Source of the DNA: a virus
Reading direction: 5' to 3' (one strand)
Length of the DNA: 20,657 bases
IMG/VR virus record: IMGVR_UViG_3300017739_000157
Coordinates: 1 to 20,657 of that record
Below the pieces are notes generated by a model. That model made no database searches. It was not told where the DNA came from and saw only the letters and a program-made list of their open reading frames with translations. Positions 6,495-16,039 of this stretch are shown one piece after another; within the stretch, counting starts at the first letter, position 1, and each line of letters opens with the position of its first letter. Both the position numbers and the translations under genes were made by a program.

Positions 6495-7208
6495 TTACTC
6501 CTGCTCGCTCTCAGGCAGGCTCTGAGGCCCGGCATCGTCACGCTGCATGCCCAGCCTGCCGGACCAAACAGATATCGCCTGCTGAACCTGCTTGGCCTCA
6601 ACCCCAACACCCATAAGTGGACCCCCGTTGGGACCCGACAACTCAACACGCTCAACCCGAGGCAGCCTTGCCCGGAGCCATACCTCCGCCGCACGAATCC
6701 GGTTCCGCTCGTCCTCGGCAGACAACGCCATCCCCTTCAGCATGTCCAACATCGACATATCACCCTGAGCCTCCGCTTGAGCCTCCCTGTCACGGAAGCC
6801 TGCGACCTTTGTCCGCCATGCAGCCATGGTGTAGTACGACATCCCTGCGCGGCGACATGCCTCCGTAGCACTCCACCCCTCACGACGGTTTGCGAGATAC
6901 AGAGCCTCGTTGACTTCCCTCGGACGCTTGGCAGGTGGCAGGGCCAACCATTCCTTGGTCTTGACATCAGACAGATCCAGATCAGTGATCTCGGAGTCCC
7001 CTTCTCTCCGGGAACCCTGCACCCCTGCCTCGATCCGGCTGACCTGCGACCCCCCACCCCCCTGTTGCTCGCCTGCCTGCGTGACCCCCTGCTCCTCCTG
7101 CTGGCCTGACTGCCTCGCGTGTAGGGTGCTGTGCCCTGTCTCTGTCTGCCCCCCCGCTGGCTGCTGGGTCGGGTCGGGGCTTGGGGTCTGGTCCTCTGGT
7201 CTGGTCAT
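6495..7208 (-). CDS. Terminase small subunit
   Basis: A 237-residue protein from the ATG at 7208; a GTG three codons upstream is possible but less well placed. The first 75 residues are a disordered Gln/Gly/Thr/Pro-rich tail. Residues around 95-135 form a helix-turn-helix (EALYLANRREGWSATEACRR, then AGMSYYTMAAWR), the DNA-recognition unit of small terminases, which bind the packaging site and deliver DNA to the large subunit. A helical oligomerisation region follows (MLDMLKGMALSAEDERNRIR). Its position directly before the large terminase supports the call. It is the first gene of the leftward late operon. Confidence 0.8.
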   Translation of the reverse strand: MTRPEDQTPSPDPTQQPAGGQTETGHSTLHARQSGQQEEQGVTQAGEQQGGGGSQVSRIEAGVQGSRREGDSEITDLDLSDVKTKEWLALPPAKRPREVNEALYLANRREGWSATEACRRAGMSYYTMAAWRTKVAGFRDREAQAEAQGDMSMLDMLKGMALSAEDERNRIRAAEVWLRARLPRVERVELSGPNGGPLMGVGVEAKQVQQAISVWSGRLGMQRDDAGPQSLPESEQE

Positions 7209-7226
7209 GGTTCTCACTCTACGGGG

Positions 7227-7316
7227 GATTGGCCCGCCGTGTGCGATCGATGCTGCTGCTGGGCTGGAAATGGGCCTGAAGAATGGATTCTGACACCCGT
7301 TTGGGGTGGGCCAATC
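7227..7316. repeat. Long-range inverted repeat in the divergent region
   Basis: Arms at 7227-7238 and 7305-7316 are complementary at 11 of 12 positions (GATTGGCCCGCC against GGTGGGCCAATC, with one G-T). They lie in the leader of the leftward terminase operon, separated by 66 bases, and could form a long-range mRNA stem or a paired protein-binding site. No clear leftward promoter was found in this stretch. Confidence 0.5.
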
Positions 7317-7390
7317 GACATTCTCAGGCGATCTATGACTGCCTTGTGCCGTCAGTGAGACAGGGATGACCCTTACATGACCCTAACGAT

Positions 7391-7399
7391 TGTGGATAA
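7391..7399 (-). other. Perfect DnaA-box 9-mer
   Basis: TGTGGATAA is the exact reverse complement of the consensus DnaA box TTATCCACA. It lies in the divergent region 23 bases before the -35 of the first early promoter. One box could mark a replication origin or DnaA control of early transcription; no clear second box was seen nearby. Confidence 0.45.
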
Positions 7400-7421
7400 C
7401 TCTCCCCCTTGTGACAGTGAC

Positions 7422-7450
7422 TTGACACAGGGTTGACACTTTGGTATCTT
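7422..7450 (+). promoter_or_regulatory. Strong sigma-70-type early promoter
   Basis: TTGACA at 7422-7427, a 17-base spacer and TATCTT at 7445-7450. A second TTGACA sits 11 bases after the first, one helical turn away, a pattern repeated at the 9549 promoter. Transcription is expected to start near 7457, at a GC-rich hairpin (GGCC and CGGC arms), and to run into the ribozyme-bearing early operon. Confidence 0.75.
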
Positions 7451-7498
7451 GTGGGCCGGGCCTCGGCCTTCTTTGACATCCGCATACTTCGCCTGCCA

Positions 7499-7546
7499 CA
7501 GTCGGCCCCCCGGCTGTTGCCTTCCCGCTCCGAGCAGAACAGCCGG
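7499..7546 (+). promoter_or_regulatory. Mutually exclusive leader hairpins
   Basis: In the leader RNA, 7510-7516 can pair with 7499-7505 (7 bp, one G-U, loop of 4 C). The same segment extended to 7510-7518 can instead pair perfectly with 7538-7546 (9 bp). The two folds cannot coexist. The second ends 10 bases before the first hammerhead ribozyme. This is the layout of an attenuator or RNA switch, but no poly-U tract marks a terminator, so function is inferred. Confidence 0.45.
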
Positions 7547-7556
7547 TGGGAGAGCA

Positions 7557-7620
7557 GGCAAGACGAAACGGTCTTCGGGCCGTCTCAGGGATTGGCATTC
7601 CCTGACTGATGAGTCTGCCA
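7557..7620 (+). ncRNA. Type II hammerhead ribozyme, copy 1
   Basis: A self-cleaving RNA permuted so that stem II is open. Stem II pairs GGCAAGAC (7557-7564) with GUCUGCC (7613-7619), with one bulged A. GAAA is at 7565-7568. Stem III is 6 bp (7568-7573 with 7578-7583) with a UUCG loop. The cleavage residue is C7584. Stem I is 7 bp (7585-7591 with 7599-7605) with loop UUGGCAU. CUGAUGA is at 7606-7612. Loop bases UGGCA (7593-7597) are complementary to UGCCA (7616-7620), predicting a pseudoknot that competes with outer stem II. The predicted cut is 7584/7585, 59 bases before the start codon at 7644. Confidence 0.9.
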
Positions 7621-7643
7621 CCAACCCTCTGGAGTATCTGACC

Positions 7644-7973
7644 ATGAACCGAACCACCGCAAACATCGAAGCCGCCACCAAAGCCATCCGCATCCTTCTT
7701 GAGAACCAACAAGCCACAGACCTGCCGGGCCGAGTCGCTGGTGAAGGTGGAGTCAAGACCAAGATTGGCAAGCGAGACTGGTACGGAGATTACCTCAACC
7801 GCATCGAGATCAAGACCAGCATCTACGGCGACGGTTGGGAGTGTGACGACCGAATGGAGCGGCTCGACAAGAAGTGCTTGGAACTGGCGAAGATGTTCAA
7901 CTGCCAGTGCTGGTTCGAGGACTTCGGGACCGCCTTTCGCAACCGACTGGAGGTCTATGTCAGCCACGCCTGA
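7644..7973 (+). CDS. Small early protein between ribozymes, unknown function
   Basis: A 109-residue protein of unrecognised family. It begins MNRTTANIEAATKAIRILLE, has a charged middle (KIGKRDWYGDYLNRIEIKTS) and ends with aromatic, Cys-containing strands (FNCQCWFEDFG). No signal peptide or membrane segment is visible. It looks like a compact alpha/beta cytosolic protein. The ATG at 7644 follows a GGAG whose context (GGAGTATC) recurs before five early genes. Hammerhead ribozymes lie on both sides, so processing would put this gene alone on a 425-nt RNA (7585-8009). It is the first gene after the main early promoter, a place where phages often encode host-takeover proteins, but no such role can be shown. 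Confidence 0.75.
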   Translation: MNRTTANIEAATKAIRILLENQQATDLPGRVAGEGGVKTKIGKRDWYGDYLNRIEIKTSIYGDGWECDDRMERLDKKCLELAKMFNCQCWFEDFGTAFRNRLEVYVSHA

Positions 7974-7985
7974 CCCCTCCCCCCC

Positions 7986-8045
7986 GACGAAACGGGCCTC
8001 TGGCCCGTCTTCCGGCTTGGCATGCCGGGACTGATGAGTCTGCCA
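7986..8045 (+). ncRNA. Type II hammerhead ribozyme, copy 2
   Basis: Stem II is GAC (7986-7988) with GUC (8038-8040). GAAA is at 7989-7992. Stem III is 7 bp (7992-7998 with 8002-8008) with a 3-base loop UCU. The cleavage residue is C8009. Stem I is 7 bp (8010-8016 with 8024-8030, one U-G) with loop UUGGCAU, identical to copy 1 although the stem bases differ. CUGAUGA is at 8031-8037. Tail UGCCA (8041-8045) complements loop UGGCA (8018-8022). It starts 13 bases after the stop of the upstream gene and ends 22 bases before the next start codon. Confidence 0.9.
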
Positions 8046-8066
8046 AAAACCCTTCTGGAGTATCCC

Positions 8067-8444
8067 ATGAACCCGACCAACCCTTCCGAATTCAACTTCG
8101 CCATCCAAAACGCCATCGAGTCCACCTTCAACCTGATCGTTGCCCAATGCGGCGAGGACCTCAAGTTTGACTGGAGATTCACGCTGCCCGGCTCCGGCGG
8201 TGCTGCTGCTGTCGCCTCCGTGGATCGCCGCCTGACCACCACCCGTGTTGGCCTTTACATCCTTGACCGCCTCACCAACGCCCTGAACGCCTTCGGATAC
8301 ACGGTCAAGGCTGTCGGCGATGGCAATACCGTCCTGCAAATCACGCTCTGCGACAAGATCCAGCAGGCTGCATCCTATGCCGACTACAACGACTTCTGCG
8401 ACCGCGAGGAGCAGCAACTCCAAAAGTCCGGTCGGATCTACTGA
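8067..8444 (+). CDS. Small early protein between ribozymes, unknown function
   Basis: A 125-residue protein of unrecognised family. Features are an N-terminal helix (FNFAIQNAIESTFNLIVAQC), a Gly/Ala turn (LPGSGGAAAVASVD), a hydrophobic helix (GLYILDRLTNALNAFGYTV) and a charged C-terminal helix (DFCDREEQQLQKSG). No export signal is seen. The ATG at 8067 was chosen because it follows the shared GGAGTATCCC site by the same spacing as its neighbours; the earlier in-frame ATG at 8022 falls inside ribozyme stem I. After cleavage on both sides it would be the only gene on a 468-nt RNA (8010-8477). Confidence 0.75.
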   Translation: MNPTNPSEFNFAIQNAIESTFNLIVAQCGEDLKFDWRFTLPGSGGAAAVASVDRRLTTTRVGLYILDRLTNALNAFGYTVKAVGDGNTVLQITLCDKIQQAASYADYNDFCDREEQQLQKSGRIY

Positions 8445-8454
8445 TCCTGACCAC

Positions 8455-8513
8455 GGCGAAACGGCCTTCGGGCCGTCTTCGGGGCTGGCATCCCCGGACT
8501 GATGAGCCTGCCA
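8455..8513 (+). ncRNA. Type II hammerhead ribozyme, copy 3
   Basis: Stem II is GGC (8455-8457) with GCC (8506-8508), a compensatory change from the GAC-GUC pair of copies 1 and 2. GAAA is at 8458-8461. Stem III is 6 bp (8461-8466 with 8471-8476) with a UUCG loop. The cleavage residue is C8477. Stem I is 7 bp (8478-8484 with 8492-8498, one U-G) with loop CUGGCAU. CUGAUGA is at 8499-8505. Tail UGCCA (8509-8513) complements loop UGGCA (8486-8490). It starts 11 bases after the upstream stop codon and ends 22 bases before the next start. Confidence 0.9.
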
Positions 8514-8534
8514 CCAAACCCACTGGAGTATCCC

Positions 8535-9044
8535 ATGACCCCATCCGCACCAATCTCGTTCGACTGCTTCGTCAAAGCCTCAGAGTTCCTTGAGGCCAAG
8601 CACGCCCGCATGGACCGCCACGAGTCTCTGGCCCTGTTCACCTGCGACGATGCCATGATCGCTGACCTGTCCCGTCCCGAAGGCGACGTTCTCGCTGTGG
8701 TTCGCGTCTGGAAAGGCTTCTACGTTCTGGCCCGATACCAGCAATTCGAGGGCCGAATCGTAGCCCGAATCATGACCACCAACTGGTCTTGGGAAGCCAA
8801 CGTGTTCCACGAAAAAGCCTTGAAGGTCGGTCATCTGGTGGGCCAAACTCCGCTTGAATACTTCCTGAACACCGCCCTCAGTCAAGCCCACGGTGGCCTC
8901 AAGGATGTGGAGGGTGATCTGGAGCATGACCACGTTGTCGGACCACTCGCCCGCATCGAGGAGGACCGCCTCGAAGCCCAGTGCGAGGTAGACCGCGAAC
9001 GCTATGAGTTTGATGCCTACGGCGACCGCGACCTCTGCCGGTGA
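8535..9044 (+). CDS. Early protein after third ribozyme, unknown function
   Basis: A 169-residue protein of unrecognised family. The N-terminal half alternates helices and strands (FDCFVKASEFLEAKHARMDR, VLAVVRVWKGFYVLARYQQF). The C-terminal 45 residues are strongly acidic and charged (EEDRLEAQCEVDRERYEFDA), which could mimic nucleic acid or bind a basic host protein. The ATG at 8535 follows the shared GGAGTATCCC site; an in-frame ATG at 8502 is part of the ribozyme core CUGAUGA and is not used here. Ribozyme 3 would give its mRNA a 5' hairpin, but no ribozyme follows; a C-rich hairpin lies downstream instead. Confidence 0.75.
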   Translation: MTPSAPISFDCFVKASEFLEAKHARMDRHESLALFTCDDAMIADLSRPEGDVLAVVRVWKGFYVLARYQQFEGRIVARIMTTNWSWEANVFHEKALKVGHLVGQTPLEYFLNTALSQAHGGLKDVEGDLEHDHVVGPLARIEEDRLEAQCEVDRERYEFDAYGDRDLCR

Positions 9045-9058
9045 TCACGACCCCTCAC

Positions 9059-9100
9059 CTGTCCCCTCCCCGGAGGGGGCGGCCTGAGCGGCCCTGACAG
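9059..9100 (+). repeat. C-rich structured intergenic element, copy 1
   Basis: CCCCTC (9063-9068) pairs with GAGGGG (9073-9078) around loop CCCG, a second small hairpin has GGCC arms, and an outer stem pairs CUGUC (9059-9063) with GACAG (9096-9100). A 26-base stretch from 9057 matches copy 2 (from 10644) except for two loop bases. There is no U tract, so it is not a standard terminator, and no hammerhead core. It takes the place that ribozymes hold at the preceding junctions. Confidence 0.55.
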
Positions 9101-9130
9101 CCACTTGACACACCCCTTTTGGAGTATCCC

Positions 9131-9541
9131 ATGACCACCCCTTCCAACATCTCGTTCTCCGCCTCCCGGCAACGCCTGACCGTCCGCTGCACCTGCGACA
9201 ACCTCGATGTGATCACAGTCACACTCAAGAAGAAGCAGGTCACGAACCCTCGCCAGCCATACCGCATCGCAGAGAACCCTCACGACGGTAGATTCTTTTA
9301 CCATCCGCCCGCTACTGAATCCGATGTCCAGTGGTATCTGCTTGGCCTTGTCGAGGCCGGTCGCATCCCAATGACCAAGGCGAAGTCAATGCTGCACGCC
9401 CTCCAAGATAAGGACCTGCGGAGCCGTGGTGGCGGAGCATTGGCCGCAACGGTCACCGTATCTGGTCATGTTGACTGGGTCGATGGTGGCCCAGTGATCA
9501 GGGACGAGGAGCCGGAACCCTACGACCCGTACGATCCTTGA
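9131..9541 (+). CDS. Early protein, unknown function
   Basis: A 136-residue protein of unrecognised family. Residues 1-40 are beta-rich (ISFSASRQRLTVRCTCDNLD), residues 55-95 contain FFYHPPATESDVQWYLLGLV and a short helix (KAKSMLHALQDKDL), and the C-terminus is an acidic Pro/Tyr tail (EEPEPYDPYDP). The ATG at 9131 follows GGAGTATCCC exactly as in the ribozyme-preceded genes. A lone TTGACA lies upstream without a matching -10, so the gene is probably read from the early operon transcript. A new promoter begins eight bases after its stop codon. Confidence 0.7.
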   Translation: MTTPSNISFSASRQRLTVRCTCDNLDVITVTLKKKQVTNPRQPYRIAENPHDGRFFYHPPATESDVQWYLLGLVEAGRIPMTKAKSMLHALQDKDLRSRGGGALAATVTVSGHVDWVDGGPVIRDEEPEPYDPYDP

Positions 9542-9548
9542 CCCTCGC

Positions 9549-9577
9549 TTGACACACCTCTGACACTTTGCTAAGAT
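9549..9577 (+). promoter_or_regulatory. Sigma-70-type promoter with tandem -35-like repeat
   Basis: TTGACA at 9549-9554, 17-base spacer, TAAGAT at 9572-9577. A second copy (CTGACACTTTG) starts 11 bases after the first, as at the 7422 promoter where TTGACACTTTG also occurs. The shared direct repeat suggests the same regulator acts on both. Transcription should start near 9584, before a 24-codon leader ORF and the antirestriction gene. Confidence 0.7.
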
Positions 9578-9602
9578 TCACATTCAAACGGAGACCTTGA
9601 CC

Positions 9603-9677
9603 ATGAATCACACCCCTCTCACCCCTGACCAAGAGCAGTTCCTCGGCGACTGCGACCGCAACGGCCTCTTCATCTGA
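9603..9677 (+). CDS. Possible 24-residue leader peptide
   Basis: A short ORF (begins MNHTPLTPDQEQFLGDCDRN, ends GLFI) between the 9549 promoter and the antirestriction gene. GGAGA lies nine bases before the ATG. It ends 22 bases before the next start, so it could couple translation or act as a leader peptide. No run of one amino acid suggests classical attenuation. It may be a real microprotein or chance. Confidence 0.35.
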   Translation: MNHTPLTPDQEQFLGDCDRNGLFI

Positions 9678-9699
9678 ACCCAACCCAAGGAGTATCCCC

Positions 9700-10626
9700 A
9701 TGACCAAATTCCAAGACCACTGTTCCGACACCGTCGTTACCCTCACCACCGCCCTTGAATCCGGCAACATCAAGCCATGGATCTTGCCGTGGCTCCAAGG
9801 CCCCCAAGGCCGCTCCTACCCCCGGTCGGTGTCCACGGGCCGCCCATACACCGGCATGAACTCTCTCATGCTGGCCTTCAACGGCTACTCCAGCCCGTGG
9901 TATCTCACCTTCAAGCAGGTCAAGAACCTCGGCGGGTCCGTTCGCAAGGGCGAGAAGGCCACCACCGTCTTCTTCTGGAAGTGGCTCCACAAGGAGGAGG
10001 ATGGTGAGGTCAAGCGTATCCCGCTGTTCAAGACCTTCAACGTGTTCAACATCGAGCAGTGCGATGTGCCTGCCGAGGAGTTGACCAAACTCGACGCACG
10101 CCTCGACCGCATCTGCGGCCCCGTCACCGGCCTCTCGGTCGAGGATGCCATCACCGCCGCCGAGACCGTGTGCCTCGACTGGTGCAACGCCGAAGATGTG
10201 ACGGTCCACGACACCGGCAACCAAGCCTGCTACATCCCGTCTCAGGACGAGATCAACATGCCCAAGGTGGAGTGGTTCAAGGACGGTCACAAGGGCTACG
10301 CCCAGACCTTCGCCCACGAATGCGTCCACGCCACTGGGGCCAAGTCACGCCTCGGTCGCAAACTCGACGGCGGCTTCGGGTCCAAGGACTACGCCCGCGA
10401 GGAGTTGGTGGCCGAGATCGGTTCAGCCATGATCATGGCGAACACCGGCACTGACCTGAACGAGGAGCAGTGCGTGGCCTATCTCAAGAACTGGTTGACG
10501 CGGTGCGAAGATGATGCCACCGCCCTGAACTACGGGGCCACCCGTGCCGAGAAGGCGGCAGCCATGATCCTCGGGACCACCGAGGAGGCTGCCACCCCCG
10601 AGCAGAAGGAGGTGGCAATGGCCTGA
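9700..10626 (+). CDS. ArdC-like antirestriction protein with zincin peptidase domain
   Basis: A 308-residue protein with the two-domain layout of ArdC. Residues 1-130 are an N-terminal ssDNA-binding-type domain with the family phrases KPWILPWLQGP, GRPYTGMNSLML, WYLTFKQVKNLGGSVRKGEK and FKTFNVFNIEQC. Residues 170-290 are a metallopeptidase-like domain with HECVH (H206, E207, H210) and the downstream acidic helix AREELVAEIGSA. ArdC proteins protect incoming plasmid or phage DNA from host restriction. The zinc motif is intact, so peptidase activity is possible. The ATG at 9700 follows GGAGTATCCCC. Its early position behind its own strong promoter fits a counter-defence gene needed at DNA entry. 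Confidence 0.9.
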   Translation: MTKFQDHCSDTVVTLTTALESGNIKPWILPWLQGPQGRSYPRSVSTGRPYTGMNSLMLAFNGYSSPWYLTFKQVKNLGGSVRKGEKATTVFFWKWLHKEEDGEVKRIPLFKTFNVFNIEQCDVPAEELTKLDARLDRICGPVTGLSVEDAITAAETVCLDWCNAEDVTVHDTGNQACYIPSQDEINMPKVEWFKDGHKGYAQTFAHECVHATGAKSRLGRKLDGGFGSKDYAREELVAEIGSAMIMANTGTDLNEEQCVAYLKNWLTRCEDDATALNYGATRAEKAAAMILGTTEEAATPEQKEVAMA

Positions 10627-10643
10627 TCCCAGCACGACTCCCC

Positions 10644-10692
10644 ACCTGTCCCCTCTGCGGAGGGGGCGGGATGGGCAGCCCTGCCCGCGACA
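10644..10692 (+). repeat. C-rich structured intergenic element, copy 2
   Basis: CCCCTC (10650-10655) pairs with GAGGGG (10660-10665), followed by a hairpin with GCGGG and CCCGC arms and an inner GGG-CCC pair; UGU near 10647 can close with ACA at 10690-10692. It is nearly identical to copy 1 over the first 26 bases while the second hairpin differs in sequence but keeps its shape. The end overlaps the palindrome of the next element. Confidence 0.5.
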
Positions 10693-10744
10693 AATGTCAC
10701 GCCCCAATGCGACCAAGAGAAGAGAAGAGAAGAAAAGAATAGAT
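10687..10744 (+). promoter_or_regulatory. Palindrome plus purine-tract element, copy 2 (early region)
   Basis: GCGACAAATGTCAC (10687-10700, a near-palindrome around AA), then GCGACC and an AGAGAAGA-type purine tract ending in GAATAGA. It matches copy 1 (4679-4741, minus strand) at about 38 of the first 45 positions. It lies before the 62-residue gene at 10761. Shared use by a late and an early transcription unit suggests a common phage regulator or promoter. Confidence 0.6.
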
Positions 10745-10760
10745 CAGAGGAGACCAGATC

Positions 10761-10949
10761 ATGAGCATCGAAAAGTCAATAGAGATCACCATCGAGGTGA
10801 CAGAAGAAGAGGTGCAAGCCCTGTTGGACCTCTCACTCGTAACCAGTACCGCCGCTTCGGTCATCGAGCGAATCAGCGAAGAGTATTGCCTCCATGTGGA
10901 GGAGGCCGATGCCTGCAACGAGCAGTGGAGGAAGACCGATGGCGAATGA
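10761..10949 (+). CDS. Small acidic protein, unknown function
   Basis: A 62-residue, strongly acidic protein (begins MSIEKSIEITIEVTEEEVQA), with one predicted strand followed by a long helix (ALLDLSLVTSTAASVIERIS) and an acidic Cys-containing end. No family is recognised. A GGAG site lies nine bases before the ATG, and the purine tract of the shared regulatory element directly precedes it. Its size and charge are those of phage inhibitors that bind host enzymes, but that is only an analogy. A separate promoter starts just after its stop. Confidence 0.6.
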   Translation: MSIEKSIEITIEVTEEEVQALLDLSLVTSTAASVIERISEEYCLHVEEADACNEQWRKTDGE

Positions 10950-10956
10950 CCTCGAC

Positions 10957-10985
10957 TTGACACGGCCAAACCTTTTTGTTACCAT
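10957..10985 (+). promoter_or_regulatory. Putative sigma-70-type promoter
   Basis: TTGACA at 10957-10962, 17-base spacer with a T run, TACCAT at 10980-10985 (four of six consensus bases). It would start transcription near 10992, directly before the AGGAG site of the gene at 11011. The -10 is weaker than in the other three promoters. Confidence 0.5.
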
Positions 10986-11010
10986 CCCCATGTCAAAAGG
11001 AGACAACGAC

Positions 11011-11361
11011 ATGAACATCCCATCCCGACGAAGCCGTGGCTTCAAGATGTCCAAACAATCTCGATCCCAACTGATCAACTGGCTGAAGGAGTACGACCAG
11101 CAGGCCCATGAGGCACTGAACTACTCCCCCGAGGAGGCCGTCGCCACCGAGGCGACCAACGTCTTGGGCGAGCAGATCACCGGCGCACAGGTCCGGTACT
11201 ACTGCAAGCAGCAGGGCCTCGGCAAGTTCCGTAAGCCTGCCACCCCTGCCCCTCAAGAGATTGACCTTCAAACCCTGAAGGCCCACGTTGCTCAGGCCCA
11301 GAACCTGATCGAGACCCTTGCCCTGACCATCGCCAAGTGCGAGAAGGAGTTGTCCAAATGA
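11011..11361 (+). CDS. Putative helix-turn-helix protein
   Basis: A 116-residue basic protein. Residues 14-75 contain a helical region with a probable helix-turn-helix (VLGEQITGAQVRYYCKQQGL) followed by GKFRKPATPAP and a C-terminal helix with coiled-coil character (KAHVAQAQNLIETLALTIAK). This is the form of a small DNA-binding regulator that dimerises through its C-terminus, but no family is recognised. The ATG at 11011 was preferred over an in-frame ATG at 10990 because AGGAG lies between them at the right distance for the later one. It heads a four-gene set with ATGA overlaps. Confidence 0.65.
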   Translation: MNIPSRRSRGFKMSKQSRSQLINWLKEYDQQAHEALNYSPEEAVATEATNVLGEQITGAQVRYYCKQQGLGKFRKPATPAPQEIDLQTLKAHVAQAQNLIETLALTIAKCEKELSK

Positions 11362-11630
11362 GTATCGACCGATCACTCGACCGTCTTGCAGCCATCAAGG
11401 CTGAACTGTCCAAGCCATCCAACGCCGAGGCCGAGGGCCTCAAGGCATTCAAGGTGACCAAGACCATCGTCCTGCCCTTCGCCAACGAAGAGGATGAGAT
11501 CGTCCGTCAGGACAAGATCATCTGGGCGGAGGACGAGGAGTCAGCCCAAGCCGAGTTCGTCATGAACGCACCCAAGCCAATCATCTCTTGGGATGTGCGT
11601 GAGATCAAACCAACTGGAGGTGACGCATGA
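11358..11630 (+). CDS. Small protein, unknown function
   Basis: A 90-residue protein starting MSIDRSLDRLAAIKAELSK at an ATG that overlaps the preceding stop (ATGA), with AAGGAG eight bases upstream. An N-terminal helix is followed by a beta-rich segment (FKVTKTIVLPFANEEDEIVR) and an Asp/Glu-rich stretch. No family recognised. The tight overlap on both sides indicates co-translation with the putative DNA-binding protein before it and the 131-residue protein after it. Confidence 0.65.
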   Translation: MSIDRSLDRLAAIKAELSKPSNAEAEGLKAFKVTKTIVLPFANEEDEIVRQDKIIWAEDEESAQAEFVMNAPKPIISWDVREIKPTGGDA

Positions 11631-12022
11631 AGTCTGCAATGTCTCTGGCCCAGTGGGCCAACACCATGAACCAGCAGCACCCTTGGTCCTGCGAGAAGAC
11701 TCCCGACATCCACATGGCAACGTCCAAACTGTGGCACAACTCCCCGCTCTTGCAGGTGTCCACCTTGCAGTGGAGCCACTTGGAATCCAAGGGTCGTGAG
11801 GTGTACGTTCCTTTGGTGGTGGCTGAGGCCCGGCTTGAGCAACTGCATGACATCACCACCGCTTCGCCGGAGGATGTCGAGACAGTCGAAGCAATGGAAA
11901 GGTTCTGGGGTTATGCTTGCGAGCAGGAGCAGATCATGCTGGACGCTTGGGGCAGCCACCTCGTGGTGGTGGAGCCTGACCGCGTCACCCTTTACACCGA
12001 CGTAGAACTCGTGGAGAACTAA
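11627..12022 (+). CDS. Protein of unknown function
   Basis: A 131-residue protein that begins MKSAMSLAQWANTMNQQHPW, rich in Trp and His. The middle is helical (ARLEQLHDITTASPEDVETV), and the end is beta-rich (HLVVVEPDRVTLYTDVELVE). The N-terminal phrase SLAQWANTMNQQHPW looks like a small helical nucleic-acid or protein-binding segment, but no family is recognised. It overlaps the previous gene in ATGA and ends one base before the next ATG. Confidence 0.65.
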   Translation: MKSAMSLAQWANTMNQQHPWSCEKTPDIHMATSKLWHNSPLLQVSTLQWSHLESKGREVYVPLVVAEARLEQLHDITTASPEDVETVEAMERFWGYACEQEQIMLDAWGSHLVVVEPDRVTLYTDVELVEN

Positions 12023-12023
12023 G

Positions 12024-12263
12024 ATGTCTGACACTCAAATCAAACGCAAGCACATCGGCTTGCCATGCCATGAATCCCTCGCCAACTGCCTCGACCAGAT
12101 CGCTGTGATCAGGGAGAGTGAGGTCAACGCCAACATCCCAAAGCACCTTCACAAGAAGATCAGTCGCAACCTTGTGGTGCGAGAGGCAATCACGGAATAC
12201 ATCCAGAGGATAGATGCACGTCTGCCTGATGGCACGCTTGACACAGCCTGCCTCTCGGAGTAA
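12024..12263 (+). CDS. Possible ribbon-helix-helix-type small protein
   Basis: A 79-residue basic protein (begins MSDTQIKRKHIGLPCHESLA). A basic strand, the helix ESLANCLDQIAVIRE and a second helix SRNLVVREAITEYIQRID resemble the strand-helix-helix plan of ribbon-helix-helix DNA-binding proteins, although about 20 residues more than usual separate the helices. A GGAG site lies before the ATG. The last codons and the TAA stop contain a promoter (TTGACA to TAAGAT), so this gene could repress or regulate what follows. Confidence 0.55.
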   Translation: MSDTQIKRKHIGLPCHESLANCLDQIAVIRESEVNANIPKHLHKKISRNLVVREAITEYIQRIDARLPDGTLDTACLSE

Positions 12264-12266
12264 GAT
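12238..12266 (+). promoter_or_regulatory. Sigma-70-type promoter inside a gene end
   Basis: TTGACA at 12238-12243, 17-base spacer, TAAGAT at 12261-12266, identical hexamers to the 9549 promoter. The -10 overlaps the TAA stop of the preceding gene. Transcription should start near 12273, giving the exonuclease operon a structured leader of about 227 nt. Confidence 0.7.
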
Positions 12267-12267
12267 G

Positions 12268-12499
12268 CCGACCCCGGTCGGGGTGTCCCACTTCTGTTAG
12301 TTAACGGACACCTCGACCACCCCTCTACTGTTTGGTCACAGTGGATACTCCTAAGCCCGGTGCGGGATCGCACCTCCACCGGGTCTTTGCCTTCGGGCGA
12401 CAACTTCCATTTTCCTTTGGCCCTGTCTGTTGCAAGTCAGGCAGGGCATTGGCCCAAGCGTTGGGCGACATTTCATCAGGACAAGTTCAGGAGACCATC
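12268..12499 (+). ncRNA. Highly structured leader RNA before the exonuclease gene
   Basis: About 230 nt with no convincing gene. It holds, in order: a short hairpin at 12268-12281, with an alternative at 12271-12284; a perfect 7-bp stem (12282-12288 with 12306-12312) around a GUUAGUUAAC loop; a perfect 7-bp stem (12356-12362 with 12377-12383) that competes with an inner 6-bp stem (12359-12364 with 12369-12374); a GCC-UUCG-GGC hairpin at 12389-12398; a 10-bp hairpin (12420-12429 with 12438-12447); and a perfect 6-bp hairpin (12452-12457 with 12461-12466). Two hairpins end in the same GGGCGACA. The frame is open through part of it from a TTG at 12332, but that lacks a binding site. It could be a cis-regulatory leader or a precursor of a small RNA. 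Confidence 0.55.
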
Positions 12500-13354
12500 A
12501 TGTCCACAGTTACCATGAAGCAGGGCGAGTACCTGCTTGACGAGACCAGTTACCACGCACTCGGCTTGCCGTATGCCAGCAGCCACCGACTCAAGACCAT
12601 GGCGAACGCCGGGATCGAGCAGGTCTGGCACGACATCGAGAACCCACCATCACCCTCGCCAGCCATGGCTCTTGGCTCTGCCCTGCACTGCCTTGTGCTG
12701 GACCGAGATTCATTCAACCGGGACTACATCGTGGCCCCCAAGGTTGACCGCCGCACCAAGGCAGGCAAGCAGGAGTGGGAGGACTTCCAGACCACCGCAG
12801 GCCGACGCACTGTCTTGACCGAGGATCAGTACGCCACCGCCAAGTGGATGGCTGGCTCAATCATCAACCACCACTGGTGGGAGGACACCATCCCCTCGCA
12901 GATTGAGGACAACCCACGCAACATGACCGAGCGGTCGTTCATCTTCAAGCACCGCGAGATCCCATGCAAAGCACGGATCGACTACCTGCACGATGGCCTG
13001 CTGCTTGACATCAAGACAACGTCGGGTGACCTGTCCATCAACAGCCTGACCCGGACCATGGCAAACTATGGGTACGCCGAGCAGTTGGCGTTCTACCTGT
13101 TGGCAGCCACCACCTGCGGACAGAATGTCAACCGAGTTGTAGTTGGGTTCGTTCGCAACGTCGCACCGCACAACGTTCGCTTCGTGGAGATTGATCCTGA
13201 GTGGTTGACCGCTGCGACCGGGATCATCGAGGGTCGTTTGAACGAGTGGGGTTCGCACATGAACCACCTGCAAACTCACAACCACCTGCAAGATTCGTTC
13301 GTCGGATGCGATGACCTTGAGATGCCAGCATGGTACGGGAACGTCCTCGGATGA
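12500..13354 (+). CDS. RecE-like 5'-3' exonuclease (PDDEXK family)
   Basis: A 284-residue enzyme related to the C-terminal nuclease of RecE (exodeoxyribonuclease VIII). It contains ALGSALHCLVLDRDSF (H63), the core CKARIDYLHDGLLLDIKTTS with D161, D170 and K172 of the PDDEXK site, and the YAEQLAFYLLA helix with Q195. It would degrade one strand of linear phage DNA to give 3' overhangs for annealing and recombination. The ATG at 12500 is preceded by AGGAGA; the longer frame from 12332 runs through the structured leader and is rejected. It probably works with the annealing-type protein at 13972. Its last codon overlaps the next ATG (ATGA). Confidence 0.85.
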   Translation: MSTVTMKQGEYLLDETSYHALGLPYASSHRLKTMANAGIEQVWHDIENPPSPSPAMALGSALHCLVLDRDSFNRDYIVAPKVDRRTKAGKQEWEDFQTTAGRRTVLTEDQYATAKWMAGSIINHHWWEDTIPSQIEDNPRNMTERSFIFKHREIPCKARIDYLHDGLLLDIKTTSGDLSINSLTRTMANYGYAEQLAFYLLAATTCGQNVNRVVVGFVRNVAPHNVRFVEIDPEWLTAATGIIEGRLNEWGSHMNHLQTHNHLQDSFVGCDDLEMPAWYGNVLG

Positions 13355-13587
13355 AGCACTTCAACATCACCACAACATTCAGCATTCAGGTGGACTTCAC
13401 AGTCGAGGCCCGCGATGAAATTAGTGCAGAAAAGAAGATCAAAAAACTTCTCGATAGTCAAGACTGGTTTGATCTATTGGAGGCCAAGCGTCCGTCAGTC
13501 AAAAGCGCACTGAAAAAATCGGATGTGATTGACGGCCCGATTAATGTCTTGGAATCCACAACGATCGACGATTCTTGGGAGGCTTGA
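13351..13587 (+). CDS. Small protein, unknown function
   Basis: A 78-residue protein whose ATG overlaps the exonuclease stop. A beta-rich start (MKHFNITTTFSIQVDFTVEA) is followed by a Lys-rich helix (DEISAEKKIKKLLDSQDWF) and a short acidic end. The pattern of a strand, the phrase VEARDEISAEKKIKKLL and a strand resembles small phage proteins of the type that place a helix after a V-x-A-x-x-x-x-A-x-x-x-I motif. No function is known. Local base composition is more AT-rich than its neighbours, which hints at separate origin. Confidence 0.6.
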   Translation: MKHFNITTTFSIQVDFTVEARDEISAEKKIKKLLDSQDWFDLLEAKRPSVKSALKKSDVIDGPINVLESTTIDDSWEA

Positions 13588-13588
13588 T

Positions 13589-13975
13589 ATGTTGAGTGCA
13601 ATACTTTTATCGTTTGTCCTGACGGACCTGACCAAGTACGAAGATGCAACGTGGCTCGTCGAGTCCAGCCGCAAAGAAGGTTTGATCTGGGGAGACCAAG
13701 GCCGTAGCCTCGGACCCCTGCAAATCTCCAAGGCGTGCTGGAAGGATGCTTTGGAATTTGACCCCAGCATCGGCGGGACATACCTTGATTGCCAGCACTT
13801 GGACTACAGCATCAAGATCATGCGAGCCTACCTCGCCCGCTACTGCACCGAGCGGAGACTCGGTCGGAAGCCAACCGACTTTGACCGTGCCAGAATCTGG
13901 GTCGGAGGACCCCGTGGACCATGGCGTGAATCATCAATCCCCTACGCAAACAGAATCATTGGAGCAATGAAATGA
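13589..13975 (+). CDS. Lysozyme-like muramidase or endolysin
   Basis: A 128-residue protein of the small lysozyme-like type. A hydrophobic start (MLSAILLSFVLTD) is followed by WLVESSRKEG with a likely catalytic Glu at E25, then GDQGRSLGPLQISKACWKDA, a Tyr/Cys segment (GGTYLDCQHLDYS), MRAYLARYCTERRLGRKPT and ARIWVGGPRGPW. The order Glu, GD-GRSLGPLQI, RYC and GGPRG matches small phage and bacterial proteins related to invertebrate-type lysozymes, which cleave peptidoglycan. The short hydrophobic start may be a weak signal or signal-arrest segment. Its place inside the recombination operon, not beside a holin, is unusual for a lysis gene. Confidence 0.65.
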   Translation: MLSAILLSFVLTDLTKYEDATWLVESSRKEGLIWGDQGRSLGPLQISKACWKDALEFDPSIGGTYLDCQHLDYSIKIMRAYLARYCTERRLGRKPTDFDRARIWVGGPRGPWRESSIPYANRIIGAMK

Positions 13976-14712
13976 GCGCACCCCAACCAATCATCCAGAA
14001 CATCAAGGGCAAGGACTATGAAGTCGTTGCCAGCCGGGTTGCCCGGTTCCGGTACGACCACCCCGAGCGGGCCGTCCTGACCGAGTGCATCCACAACGGT
14101 GAAGACCGCGTGGTCTACAAGGCCACCATCTGTGACGAGAACCACCTGCCCATCGCGGTTGGTCACGCCGAGGAGTATCGCAACTCAGGCATGATCAACA
14201 AGACCTCAGCCACCGAGAACTGTGAGACCTCAGCGATTGGTCGCGCTCTTGGAATTCTTGGGTATGATGTCTGCAACTCCATCGCTTCGGCTGATGAAGT
14301 TGAGCGGGCTATTAGCCAGCAAGGCTCCTTGCCTACCTCCACCCCTGCCCCGACCCCCCGGTCTCCCACGCCTGCAACACCTCCAGCAAGCGTCGGGGGC
14401 GGGGCAGCAGGGCCAGCACCAGACGGAACATCGGTCGTGGATCTGCGACAACTGTACGAGAACGAGACCCCCAAGGGAACCAAGTGGGTCAAGGTCTTGG
14501 GTGCAGTCGATGGTCAGGACATCGAGATCGAGTGCTGGGAAGCAGCAGCGATGCAGACCATCCGCAACAACTGCCCCGGTCAGATTGCTGCCATCGGCGA
14601 ACACCGTGAGTTCCGTGGCAAGCCACGCTTCAAGGTGACTCGTGCGTACCTGATGGAAGCAGCACCTGTTGAGCAGAAGGAGACGTTTGATGACTCAGAC
14701 ATCCCTTTCTGA
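13972..14712 (+). CDS. Putative ssDNA-annealing protein with SSB-like tail
   Basis: A 246-residue protein in three parts. Residues 1-115 carry VASRVARFRYDHPERAVLTE, then GHAEEYRNSGMINKTSATEN and CETSAIGRALGILGYDV, a signature of phage proteins related to Erf/Rad52-type annealing proteins. Residues 118-153 are a Pro/Thr/Gly linker. Residues 154-246 are a small beta-rich domain ending DDSDIPF, the classic acidic tip with which bacterial SSB binds partner proteins. It likely coats or anneals the ssDNA made by the RecE-like exonuclease 600 bases upstream and recruits host repair enzymes. The ATG overlaps the previous stop. The annealing assignment is probable, not certain; the tail is seen directly. 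Confidence 0.7.
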   Translation: MSAPQPIIQNIKGKDYEVVASRVARFRYDHPERAVLTECIHNGEDRVVYKATICDENHLPIAVGHAEEYRNSGMINKTSATENCETSAIGRALGILGYDVCNSIASADEVERAISQQGSLPTSTPAPTPRSPTPATPPASVGGGAAGPAPDGTSVVDLRQLYENETPKGTKWVKVLGAVDGQDIEIECWEAAAMQTIRNNCPGQIAAIGEHREFRGKPRFKVTRAYLMEAAPVEQKETFDDSDIPF

Positions 14713-15103
14713 ATTCTGGATGAACAAGGCTATGGCGACGGGGCTGGTCAAGCACCTGCCCGACTACATCGTTAGCCCGCCGACCTACATGGAGGTCACC
14801 AAGTTCCACCGTCAGGAGGCGTTGGAGTGGTACTACCAAGCAAGGTCGGCAGTCAATGGGCTGCATCCAAGCCGGGGCGTGTCGCCCCTCAAGTTCTCTT
14901 CGGACAAGATAGCCGTGGATATCTTGGATGCCCTGATTGAAATGAACCTTGATGCCACAGGTAAGGGAGGTGGCGCAGGGATTAGTAAGATGTTTGACAA
15001 CGTGCGTGAGGAGGTCACATATGCCCGCATGGATAAAGATGAGAACAACCCTCTCCGCCGATGGGCGAGTGCGAACACTGGCAAGAGTATTGACTCGCTC
15101 TAG
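14690..15103 (+). CDS. Protein of unknown function in replication operon
   Basis: A 137-residue protein from the ATG at 14690 (AAGGAG seven bases upstream), overlapping the annealing protein end by 23 bases. It starts MTQTSLSEFWMNKAMATGLV and has a conserved-looking middle (VTKFHRQEALEWYYQARSAV) and a Gly-rich turn (GKGGGAGISKMFDN). A longer frame to 14669 is rejected for lack of a binding site. No enzyme motif is seen. The gene lies between annealing and replisome-organizer genes and probably serves DNA replication or recombination. Confidence 0.65.
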   Translation: MTQTSLSEFWMNKAMATGLVKHLPDYIVSPPTYMEVTKFHRQEALEWYYQARSAVNGLHPSRGVSPLKFSSDKIAVDILDALIEMNLDATGKGGGAGISKMFDNVREEVTYARMDKDENNPLRRWASANTGKSIDSL

Positions 15104-15605
15104 GGCGGAGGTCATAGGCCACCTCTACAACCTCTGGTGCATTGCGGACGAGCAGACCACGGACGGACTGCTCGCCCACTGGACCATCGAGGAGGTTGAC
15201 GAGGAGACCACCGCCGGGTTTGCCCAAGCCATGATTGACATCGACTGGTTGAAGGTCGCGGACGGTGGCCTCCAGATCCCTCGGTTCGAGGACCACAATG
15301 GCTCCTCAGCCAAGAAGAGGGCAGTGGATGCCTCACGGCAGGCCCGGAAGCGGAAGGGCGTAGAGGCCCCCTCTCGTCCCGCTACGGAGACGCAGGCTGA
15401 TGACTCCAAACTTGGTTGGTATCCTGTGCTGACTGACTTGGGTCTGGACATGAACCAAGCCATTCAGTTGGTCAGGAAAGTGTACGAGCAGTACGACGAA
15501 CTGGGAGCAAAGCAATGCCTGCAAGCGATGATCAGCAAGAGCAACGAGGCGAGGACACCGAAGGCGTACATCAGGGCAATCGTCAAGAAGATGTACGGCC
15601 TGTAG
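15021..15605 (+). CDS. Phage replisome organizer-like protein
   Basis: A 194-residue protein from the ATG at 15021 (GAGGAGG upstream), overlapping the previous gene by 83 bases. Residues 1-100 (MPAWIKMRTTLSADGRVRTL, then VIGHLYNLWCIADEQTTDGL and IPRFEDHNGSSAKKRA) have the winged-helix layout of phage replication-initiation proteins that bind the phage origin and help load helicase. Residues 100-125 are basic (RQARKRKG), and the C-terminus is a helical domain (LDMNQAIQLVRKVYEQYDEL) like DnaD/DnaT-type replisome modules, ending in YIRAIVKKMYGL. No helicase or polymerase is in view, so host replisome recruitment is likely. Confidence 0.7.
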   Translation: MPAWIKMRTTLSADGRVRTLARVLTRSRAEVIGHLYNLWCIADEQTTDGLLAHWTIEEVDEETTAGFAQAMIDIDWLKVADGGLQIPRFEDHNGSSAKKRAVDASRQARKRKGVEAPSRPATETQADDSKLGWYPVLTDLGLDMNQAIQLVRKVYEQYDELGAKQCLQAMISKSNEARTPKAYIRAIVKKMYGL

Positions 15606-16039
15606 TCTTCAGGGTCCATGGCAGGCCCGTCCCCTTGCCACGCCCTCGGGTGTTCAAGGGTCGGGCCGTGTCAATCGCAAGCCCCAAGGCAAGAGCATGG
15701 AAGGGGGCGGTCAGGGCTGAGGCGGAGCATGCAGCAGCGGCGAGTGGATGGACACCCTCGCACCGACCCCTCCGGCTCTCCTTGGTGTTTGTGTACCAGA
15801 GACCCAAGAAGCATTTCGATTCCAAGGGACTGGTGCTGGAGAAGTATGCCCACGCCTACATGACCGCTCGGCCCGACATCGACAACCTCGCCAAGATGAT
15901 CATGGATGCGATCAACGATGTGCTGTACGTCGATGACTCACAGGTGATCTACCTGACGGCGACCAAGCAGTACGGTGCTGAGGACGGCGTGCATGTCACG
16001 CTCCAAGAGATTGACCTTGCATCACTCCCGATCGCGTAA
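15515..16039 (+). CDS. rusA: RusA-family Holliday junction resolvase
   Basis: A 174-residue protein. After a 30-residue charged leader not usual for the family come FRVHGRPVPLPRPRVFKGRA, ARAWKGAVRAEAEHAA and the catalytic block ARPDIDNLAKMIMDAIND (D121, D123, N124) with VLYVDDSQV (D140, D141). RusA homodimers cut Holliday junctions symmetrically, here resolving recombination and replication branches before packaging. The only ATG (15515, GGGAG upstream) puts the first 91 bases inside the previous gene. No alternative ATG, GTG or TTG lies closer to the conserved domain, so the overlap is probably real. The end overlaps the giant minus-strand gene tail to tail by 18 bases. Confidence 0.88.
   Translation: MPASDDQQEQRGEDTEGVHQGNRQEDVRPVVFRVHGRPVPLPRPRVFKGRAVSIASPKARAWKGAVRAEAEHAAAASGWTPSHRPLRLSLVFVYQRPKKHFDSKGLVLEKYAHAYMTARPDIDNLAKMIMDAINDVLYVDDSQVIYLTATKQYGAEDGVHVTLQEIDLASLPIA

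Follow-up and report, generated by a model that had tools for sequence, protein, structure and literature searches.

Introduction

The role of bacterial and phage hammerhead ribozymes has been an open question since 2011. The hammerhead reaction itself leaves a 2′,3′-cyclic phosphate on the upstream product and a 5′-hydroxyl on the downstream product. In prophages, clustered hammerheads flank individual genes or short gene blocks, and processing of the transcript into single-gene mRNAs was proposed for them (Perreault et al., 2011; PMC3088659). Tandem prophage arrays cleave in vitro, and the A. tumefaciens triple flanking ardA, an antirestriction gene, cleaves in E. coli; circular or spliced products of hammerhead arrays were sought and none was detected (PMC3088659). 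In halovirus HF1/HF2, a hammerhead is located 13 nt before the helicase gene and the mRNA 5′ end was mapped within three nt of the cut (PMC3088659). In the open-access literature, to which the search was confined, nothing more specific was found in later work on phage hammerhead arrays.

Here we analyze an array of three type II hammerheads from an uncultivated tailed phage. The elements match the type II family RF02276 (PMC3088659) in strand order, in the complete core, in GUC at the cut, in the shortness of stem II and in the loop I/3′-tail pseudoknot; they show no structural difference from this family, and only their sequences are new. Like the clustered prophage hammerheads of C. scindens, A. 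caulinodans and A. tumefaciens (PMC3088659), they are several on one strand and flank single phage genes. They differ from those clusters, for which cleavage has been shown, in belonging to another phage with other genes, in being all of type II and in having one member directly after a promoter. The halovirus HF1/HF2 hammerhead is likewise directly upstream of an early phage gene and has a mapped mRNA 5′ end, but it is a single element with core variation in an archaeal virus. The array is a known kind of arrangement, already described in 2011 and common in phages. The first-pass annotation of this DNA was aware of no earlier series that divides successive phage genes in such a manner, a claim of novelty that is contradicted by the prophage clusters (PMC3088659) and by the IMG/VR and Streptomyces phage arrays reported below. 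The present work contributes the very regular spacing of genes and ribozymes, the finding that a ribozyme stays linked to the gene downstream of it, compensatory change seen when sister phages are compared, and cultured phages in which the proposal can be tested.

Results

Three type II hammerheads at the start of the right arm

The window, that is, the whole stretch of DNA analyzed, is an IMG/VR virus record of 20,657 bases and represents a linear fragment. Its left part, on the minus strand, encodes the portal, the large terminase and a probable small terminase; the gene at the end of this part, judged from position only, probably encodes the major capsid protein. A second arm on the plus strand extends from ∼7400 to 16000 and encodes an ArdC-type antirestriction protein (9700–10626, plus strand), an exonuclease VIII-like protein, a replication initiation-like protein and a RusA-like resolvase. 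The ribozyme array is within this right-arm operon, and the three hammerheads sit where the second arm begins. Divergence from the packaging genes, together with the nearby ArdC, recombination and replication genes, suggests that the operon is an early one.

A cmscan search of the whole window against Rfam 15 returned three type II hammerhead ribozymes, all RF02276 and all on the plus strand. Ribozyme 2 (match 7985–8048; 44.3 bits, E = 2.7e-6) and ribozyme 3 (8454–8516; 40.7 bits, E = 2.5e-5) pass the curated family cut-off of 37 bits. Ribozyme 1 (7561–7623; 34.0 bits, E = 0.0014) scores below it and is full length with an intact core. The covariance check proposed in the first-pass annotation thus turns out positive for ribozymes 2 and 3 and gives a hit short of the curated cut-off for ribozyme 1, while the matches and intact cores bear out its call of three type II hammerheads on this strand. 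The Rfam scan and further searches found no other RNA family, tRNA or other hammerhead type in the window. A core-only pattern matched three times in the window and never in 100 dinucleotide shuffles. Likewise, three elements in the window were recognized by a base-pairing descriptor, which returned nothing from mononucleotide shuffles of the 1.28-Mb sequence set. The core motifs CUGANGA and GAAA are present in each element, the cut site conforms to UH and the positions next to the core are paired, and the descriptor places hairpin closures on stems I and III and leaves stem II open, which is the type II topology. Judged by sequence and predicted pairing, the three elements are genuine type II hammerheads. 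When ribozymes 2 and 3 were folded in isolation by energy, the hammerhead fold was not the minimum-energy structure; the pseudoknot described below is outside the folding model.

Anatomy of the ribozymes

All three ribozymes share a plan in which GAAA, the stem III hairpin and GUC are followed by a stem I of 7 bp closed by a loop of 7 nt, then by CUGAUGA and one strand of stem II. These parts, with the C of GUC as the cleavage position, had been listed in the first-pass annotation, and the cleavage positions given there coincide with the sites predicted here. Ribozyme 1 (7557–7619, plus strand), identified by RF02276, the core pattern and the pairing descriptor, is built from stem II GGCA(A)GAC/GUCUGCC, GAAA, stem III CGGUC-UUCG-GGCCG and UC; after the predicted cut at 7584/7585 come stem I UCAGGGA-UUGGCAU-UCCCUGA and CUGAUGA. 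Ribozyme 2 (7986–8044, plus strand), an RF02276 match, reads GAC, GAAA, CGGGCC-UCU-GGCCCG and UC up to the predicted cut at 8009/8010, then UUCCGGC-UUGGCAU-GCCGGGA, CUGAUGA and GUC. Ribozyme 3 (8455–8512, plus strand), also matched by RF02276, reads GGC, GAAA, CGGCC-UUCG-GGCCG and UC, is predicted to be cut at 8477/8478, and continues with UUCGGGG-CUGGCAU-CCCCGGA, CUGAUGA and GCC.

Stem II is 3 bp long; in ribozyme 1 it can gain 4 bp past a bulged A. All three ribozymes may form a pseudoknot, absent from the first-pass annotation, between GGCA of loop I and UGCC of the 3′ tail directly after stem II (loop 7592–7598 and tail 7616–7619 in ribozyme 1), with 5–6 Watson–Crick pairs possible in the window elements and their counterparts in the sister phage L004. 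The UGCC tail of ribozyme 1 could alternatively lengthen stem II. This tertiary contact, common in type II hammerheads and not required for membership of the class, has been described before (PMC3088659).

Genes, promoter and spacing

A consensus scan located a promoter-like site of the sigma-70 type (TTGACA-17-TATCTT, the second hexamer being preceded by TG) at 7422–7450 on the plus strand; four such sites were found in 7200–12500, against 1.1 expected. From the promoter position and the ribozyme 1 cut site, a 5′ leader of ∼125 nt (7457–7584, plus strand) is predicted to be released by that cut, its start being the transcription start deduced from the promoter. A 'switch', in which the leader would sequester the extended stem II of ribozyme 1, was considered and rejected: the fold of the leader upstream of the ribozyme is not significant (z = −0.95), and the 3-bp stem II core would stay free.

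The ribozymes precede three plus-strand genes, none of which matched a known family in a family search. Gene 1 (7644–7973) encodes 109 amino acids, and its start is backed by orthologues found by blastn in records L133 and L135. Gene 2 (8067–8444) encodes 125 amino acids, with orthologues 78–79% identical in two sister phages, and gene 3 (8535–9044) encodes 169 amino acids, with orthologues 91% identical in two sister phages. Ribozyme 2 starts 12 nt beyond the gene 1 stop codon; for ribozyme 3, the distance from the gene 2 stop is 10 nt, and both fill their intergenic gaps. The end of stem II is 26–27 nt from the next ATG in all three cases, and each of these ATG codons is preceded by a conserved CUGGAGUAUC ribosome-binding segment. 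The mapped genes and elements agree with the alternation of genes and ribozymes on one strand noted in the first-pass annotation. Since the next promoter-like site is at 9549, genes 1–3 appear to share one promoter; the 'one promoter' of that annotation accordingly stands for the block from 7422 to ∼9548 and fails beyond it. No terminator-like site was found between genes 1 and 3.

The 3′ side of the block is marked by a GC-rich hairpin repeat after gene 3 (9046–9104, plus strand), which forms direct repeat D6 with 10633–10691, after the ArdC gene; a further copy is at 6755–6824 of record L133, and the copies are 81% identical. The repeat follows gene ends, several copies are just before a promoter-like site, and there is no T run; it is possibly a terminator-like or 3′-end element. 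The gap before gene 4 (9040–9149) was inspected for a fourth, decayed ribozyme and has no hammerhead core; it holds the hairpin repeat and an apparent promoter remnant. There (9104–9131) gene 4 is preceded by TTGACAC that lacks a second hexamer to match and so resembles a promoter shortened by deletion, and a sister phage has a full promoter-like site at this position.

Sister phages conserve the ribozyme with its downstream gene

Relatives were located via the terminase and via genes 2 and 3. Two sister records encode a terminase protein 99% identical to that of the window, share ∼91% DNA identity in the left part and carry two of the three ribozymes. Ribozymes 2 and 3 precede the same genes as in the window, whereas the gene upstream of ribozyme 2 and gene 2 is a different one, and a gene with its own promoter-like site stands between gene 2 and the unit of ribozyme 3 and gene 3. 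The upstream neighbors differ, and the ribozyme thus stays with its downstream gene. Homology with the sister phages breaks at the ribozyme edges (7967 and 8441–8451). Any benefit might lie with the upstream gene, the downstream gene or both; this linkage favors the downstream gene.

Ribozyme 2 of the sister phage L004 carries compensatory changes. Stem I is UUCCGGC/GCCGGGA in the window and UCAGGGC/GCCCUGA in L004, and stem III is CGGGCC/GGCCCG in the window and CAGGCC/GGCCUG in L004; in both stems both strands have changed, and the core, loop I and the pseudoknot are preserved. Ribozyme 3 is identical throughout in L004. Across the orthologous sets tried, including Streptomyces phages, two-sided changes affected 8 stem pairs and one-sided changes 4, with 77 pairs left unchanged, a count drawn from strict-descriptor elements and contiguous paired runs, in which broken pairs cannot show.

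More distant relatives, with ∼79% terminase identity, gave no Rfam hammerhead match; in two of them, L133 and L135, the orthologue of gene 1 is preceded by a promoter-like leader instead of a ribozyme. The ribozymes are thus dispensable for this gene arrangement. A search of IMG/VR with peptide patterns confirmed no relative of gene 1, and a nucleotide search of phage records with 7500–9200 of the window returned no match.

Hammerhead arrays in other uncultivated phages

The core pattern gave at least 120 matches in IMG/VR and at least 120 in bacterial genomes. When RF02276 was run on 100 whole IMG/VR records, matches were present in 76 of them, and 17 contained at least three, the maximum being ten; these records had been preselected with the HHR-II pattern, and the counts are not frequencies in nature. 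The base-pairing descriptor identified 215 elements in the loci examined, a figure in which some loci are represented more than once; shuffled sequence yielded none. Most elements are placed as in the window: 118 of the 173 distinct usable elements (68%) lie between an ORF stop and a start led by a Shine–Dalgarno sequence, each within 150 nt, compared with 12% of random positions. The median distance is 2 nt from the upstream stop to the ribozyme and 25 nt from the ribozyme to the downstream start. Neighboring elements within 3 kb of each other form 87 pairs; in every pair both members share a strand, and the median spacing is 504 nt. Stem positions away from the core accommodate four to six pair types, and complementarity of four or more pairs between loop I and the tail is found in 85 of 185 elements, against a mean of 23.5 in swapped controls. 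This comparison hints at a general rule for the position of such ribozymes. With its intact cores, compensatory change in a sister phage and very regular placement, the array in the window is a clear case of phage hammerheads.

In locus L106, eight ribozymes alternate with seven genes, and at six of the boundaries the ribozyme follows the stop with a gap of −1 to 2 nt. Three uncultivated phages (L046, L106 and L012) contain 6–9 ribozymes each, many of which start at or overlap the upstream stop codon; this position suggests that the termination of translation and the folding of the ribozyme are linked. A shared function of the downstream genes was considered and set aside: the 133 downstream genes have no common family, most being of unknown family, with DUF932 in 6 and ArdA in 1.

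Proposed processing of the transcript and alternative roles

We consider it likely, with a probability of about 0.8, that the array cuts the polycistronic right-arm transcript co-transcriptionally into single-gene mRNAs, and self-processing was also the role suggested in the first-pass annotation. The analysis establishes the sequence and structure of the elements, their placement, their compensatory change and the fact that they are conserved along with the gene downstream; cleavage in cells and a benefit to the phage are inferred, and the chemistry of the ends is taken from the known hammerhead reaction. The like placement in other phages, cultured Streptomyces phages among them, and the cleavage of tandem prophage hammerheads in vitro and in E. 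coli (PMC3088659) also favor processing. RNA polymerase would start near 7457 and transcribe genes 1–3 as one RNA, and each ribozyme would fold while being made and cleave its own RNA in cis, directly 3′ of the C in GUC. Together, the three cuts would free the leader and single-gene mRNAs; as no gene lies ahead of ribozyme 1, its cut would serve to remove the leader. Each downstream mRNA would begin with a 5′-hydroxyl and the stem I hairpin, ∼60 nt before the start codon, and each upstream mRNA would end in the stem III hairpin with a 2′,3′-cyclic phosphate. The hairpins may protect both new ends, and the 5′-hydroxyl may evade decay enzymes that need a 5′-phosphate. With single-gene mRNAs ending in hairpins, the ribozymes would constitute compact gene punctuation, separating the stability and translation of neighboring genes without extra promoters or terminators.

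A possible alternative, to which we give clearly less than even odds, is that the ribozymes cleave but mainly define where the mRNA of the adjacent downstream gene begins, for stability or translation, and do not primarily divide the operon. Such a role would agree with the lack of any gene between the promoter and ribozyme 1, with the constancy of the downstream gene of ribozymes 2 and 3 while the upstream neighbor varies, and with the halovirus helicase mRNA, whose 5′ end is within three nt of the hammerhead cut (PMC3088659). The median of 2 nt to the upstream stop and the long alternating series, however, fit boundaries between genes at least as well, and 5′-end setting and operon division can coexist.

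It is improbable that the ribozyme and its ribosome-binding segment act mainly as a recombination or cassette boundary for swaps of small genes, with cleavage of minor importance. The three copies are alike over 80 nt (60–81% identity to the reference copy) and sister-phage homology ends at the ribozyme edges, as a boundary would predict, but the compensatory change and invariant core show selection on the RNA fold, whereas plain homology would favor identical sequence. Eukaryotic elements that make circular RNAs have two same-strand hammerheads in flanking positions. Genes 1 and 2 are each flanked in this manner, and fragments released by paired ribozymes might be ligated again to give circular or joined RNAs. 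We regard this as very improbable, given that no spliced or circular array products were detected by Perreault et al. (PMC3088659) and that type II products would lack the shared ends that favor ligation. Chance resemblance, or decay into inactive ribozymes, is hardly credible: ribozyme 1 is under the curated score and activity is predicted from sequence, but three intact cores, zero shuffle matches, compensatory change in a sister phage and regular placement all stand against it.

Extending transcript processing beyond this locus is more doubtful. Tentatively, hammerhead arrays may form a widespread, dedicated punctuation of phage operons, with one ribozyme per boundary, a few nt after the stop and ∼25 nt before the start. 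Were this so, the spacing to stop and start would keep ribosomes and ribozyme from colliding, the hairpin-ended 5′-hydroxyl mRNAs would escape 5′-end-dependent decay, and the ribozyme with its ribosome-binding segment would travel with the gene as a module that can replace a promoter.

Hammerhead arrays in cultured Streptomyces phages

One of the long arrays, L053, is similar to cultured Streptomyces phages that belong to the Arquatrovirinae. With E values up to 0.1, RF02276 matches numbered 11 in Alvy (NC_054669.1; L265), 10 in Bowden (MK392363.1; L266) and 8 in Andris (OP751147.1; L267), of which 10, 9 and 5, respectively, are over the cut-off. GAAA and CUGANGA are in place in all 29 matches; 22 of these fall in gaps between annotated genes, and the other 7 overlap annotated frames. 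The region tables examined for the three phages contain no hammerhead annotation. As in the window, type II hammerheads are found between small genes of one arm that includes an antirestriction gene. The Streptomyces phages differ in having longer arrays (8–11) and other genes and in being cultured, and they show no nucleotide match to the window array. With this many copies, they make the proposed operon processing directly testable in infected cells.

One hammerhead is directly before an OCR-like antirestriction gene, which is named in Bowden and Andris and has a matching position in Alvy. In Alvy (L265:1458–1591), two hammerheads are arranged back to back. Hammerhead arrays thus repeatedly have an antirestriction gene nearby: ArdC on the second arm of the window, ArdA downstream of one IMG/VR ribozyme, the OCR-like gene in the Streptomyces phages, and ardA in the prophage triple (PMC3088659).
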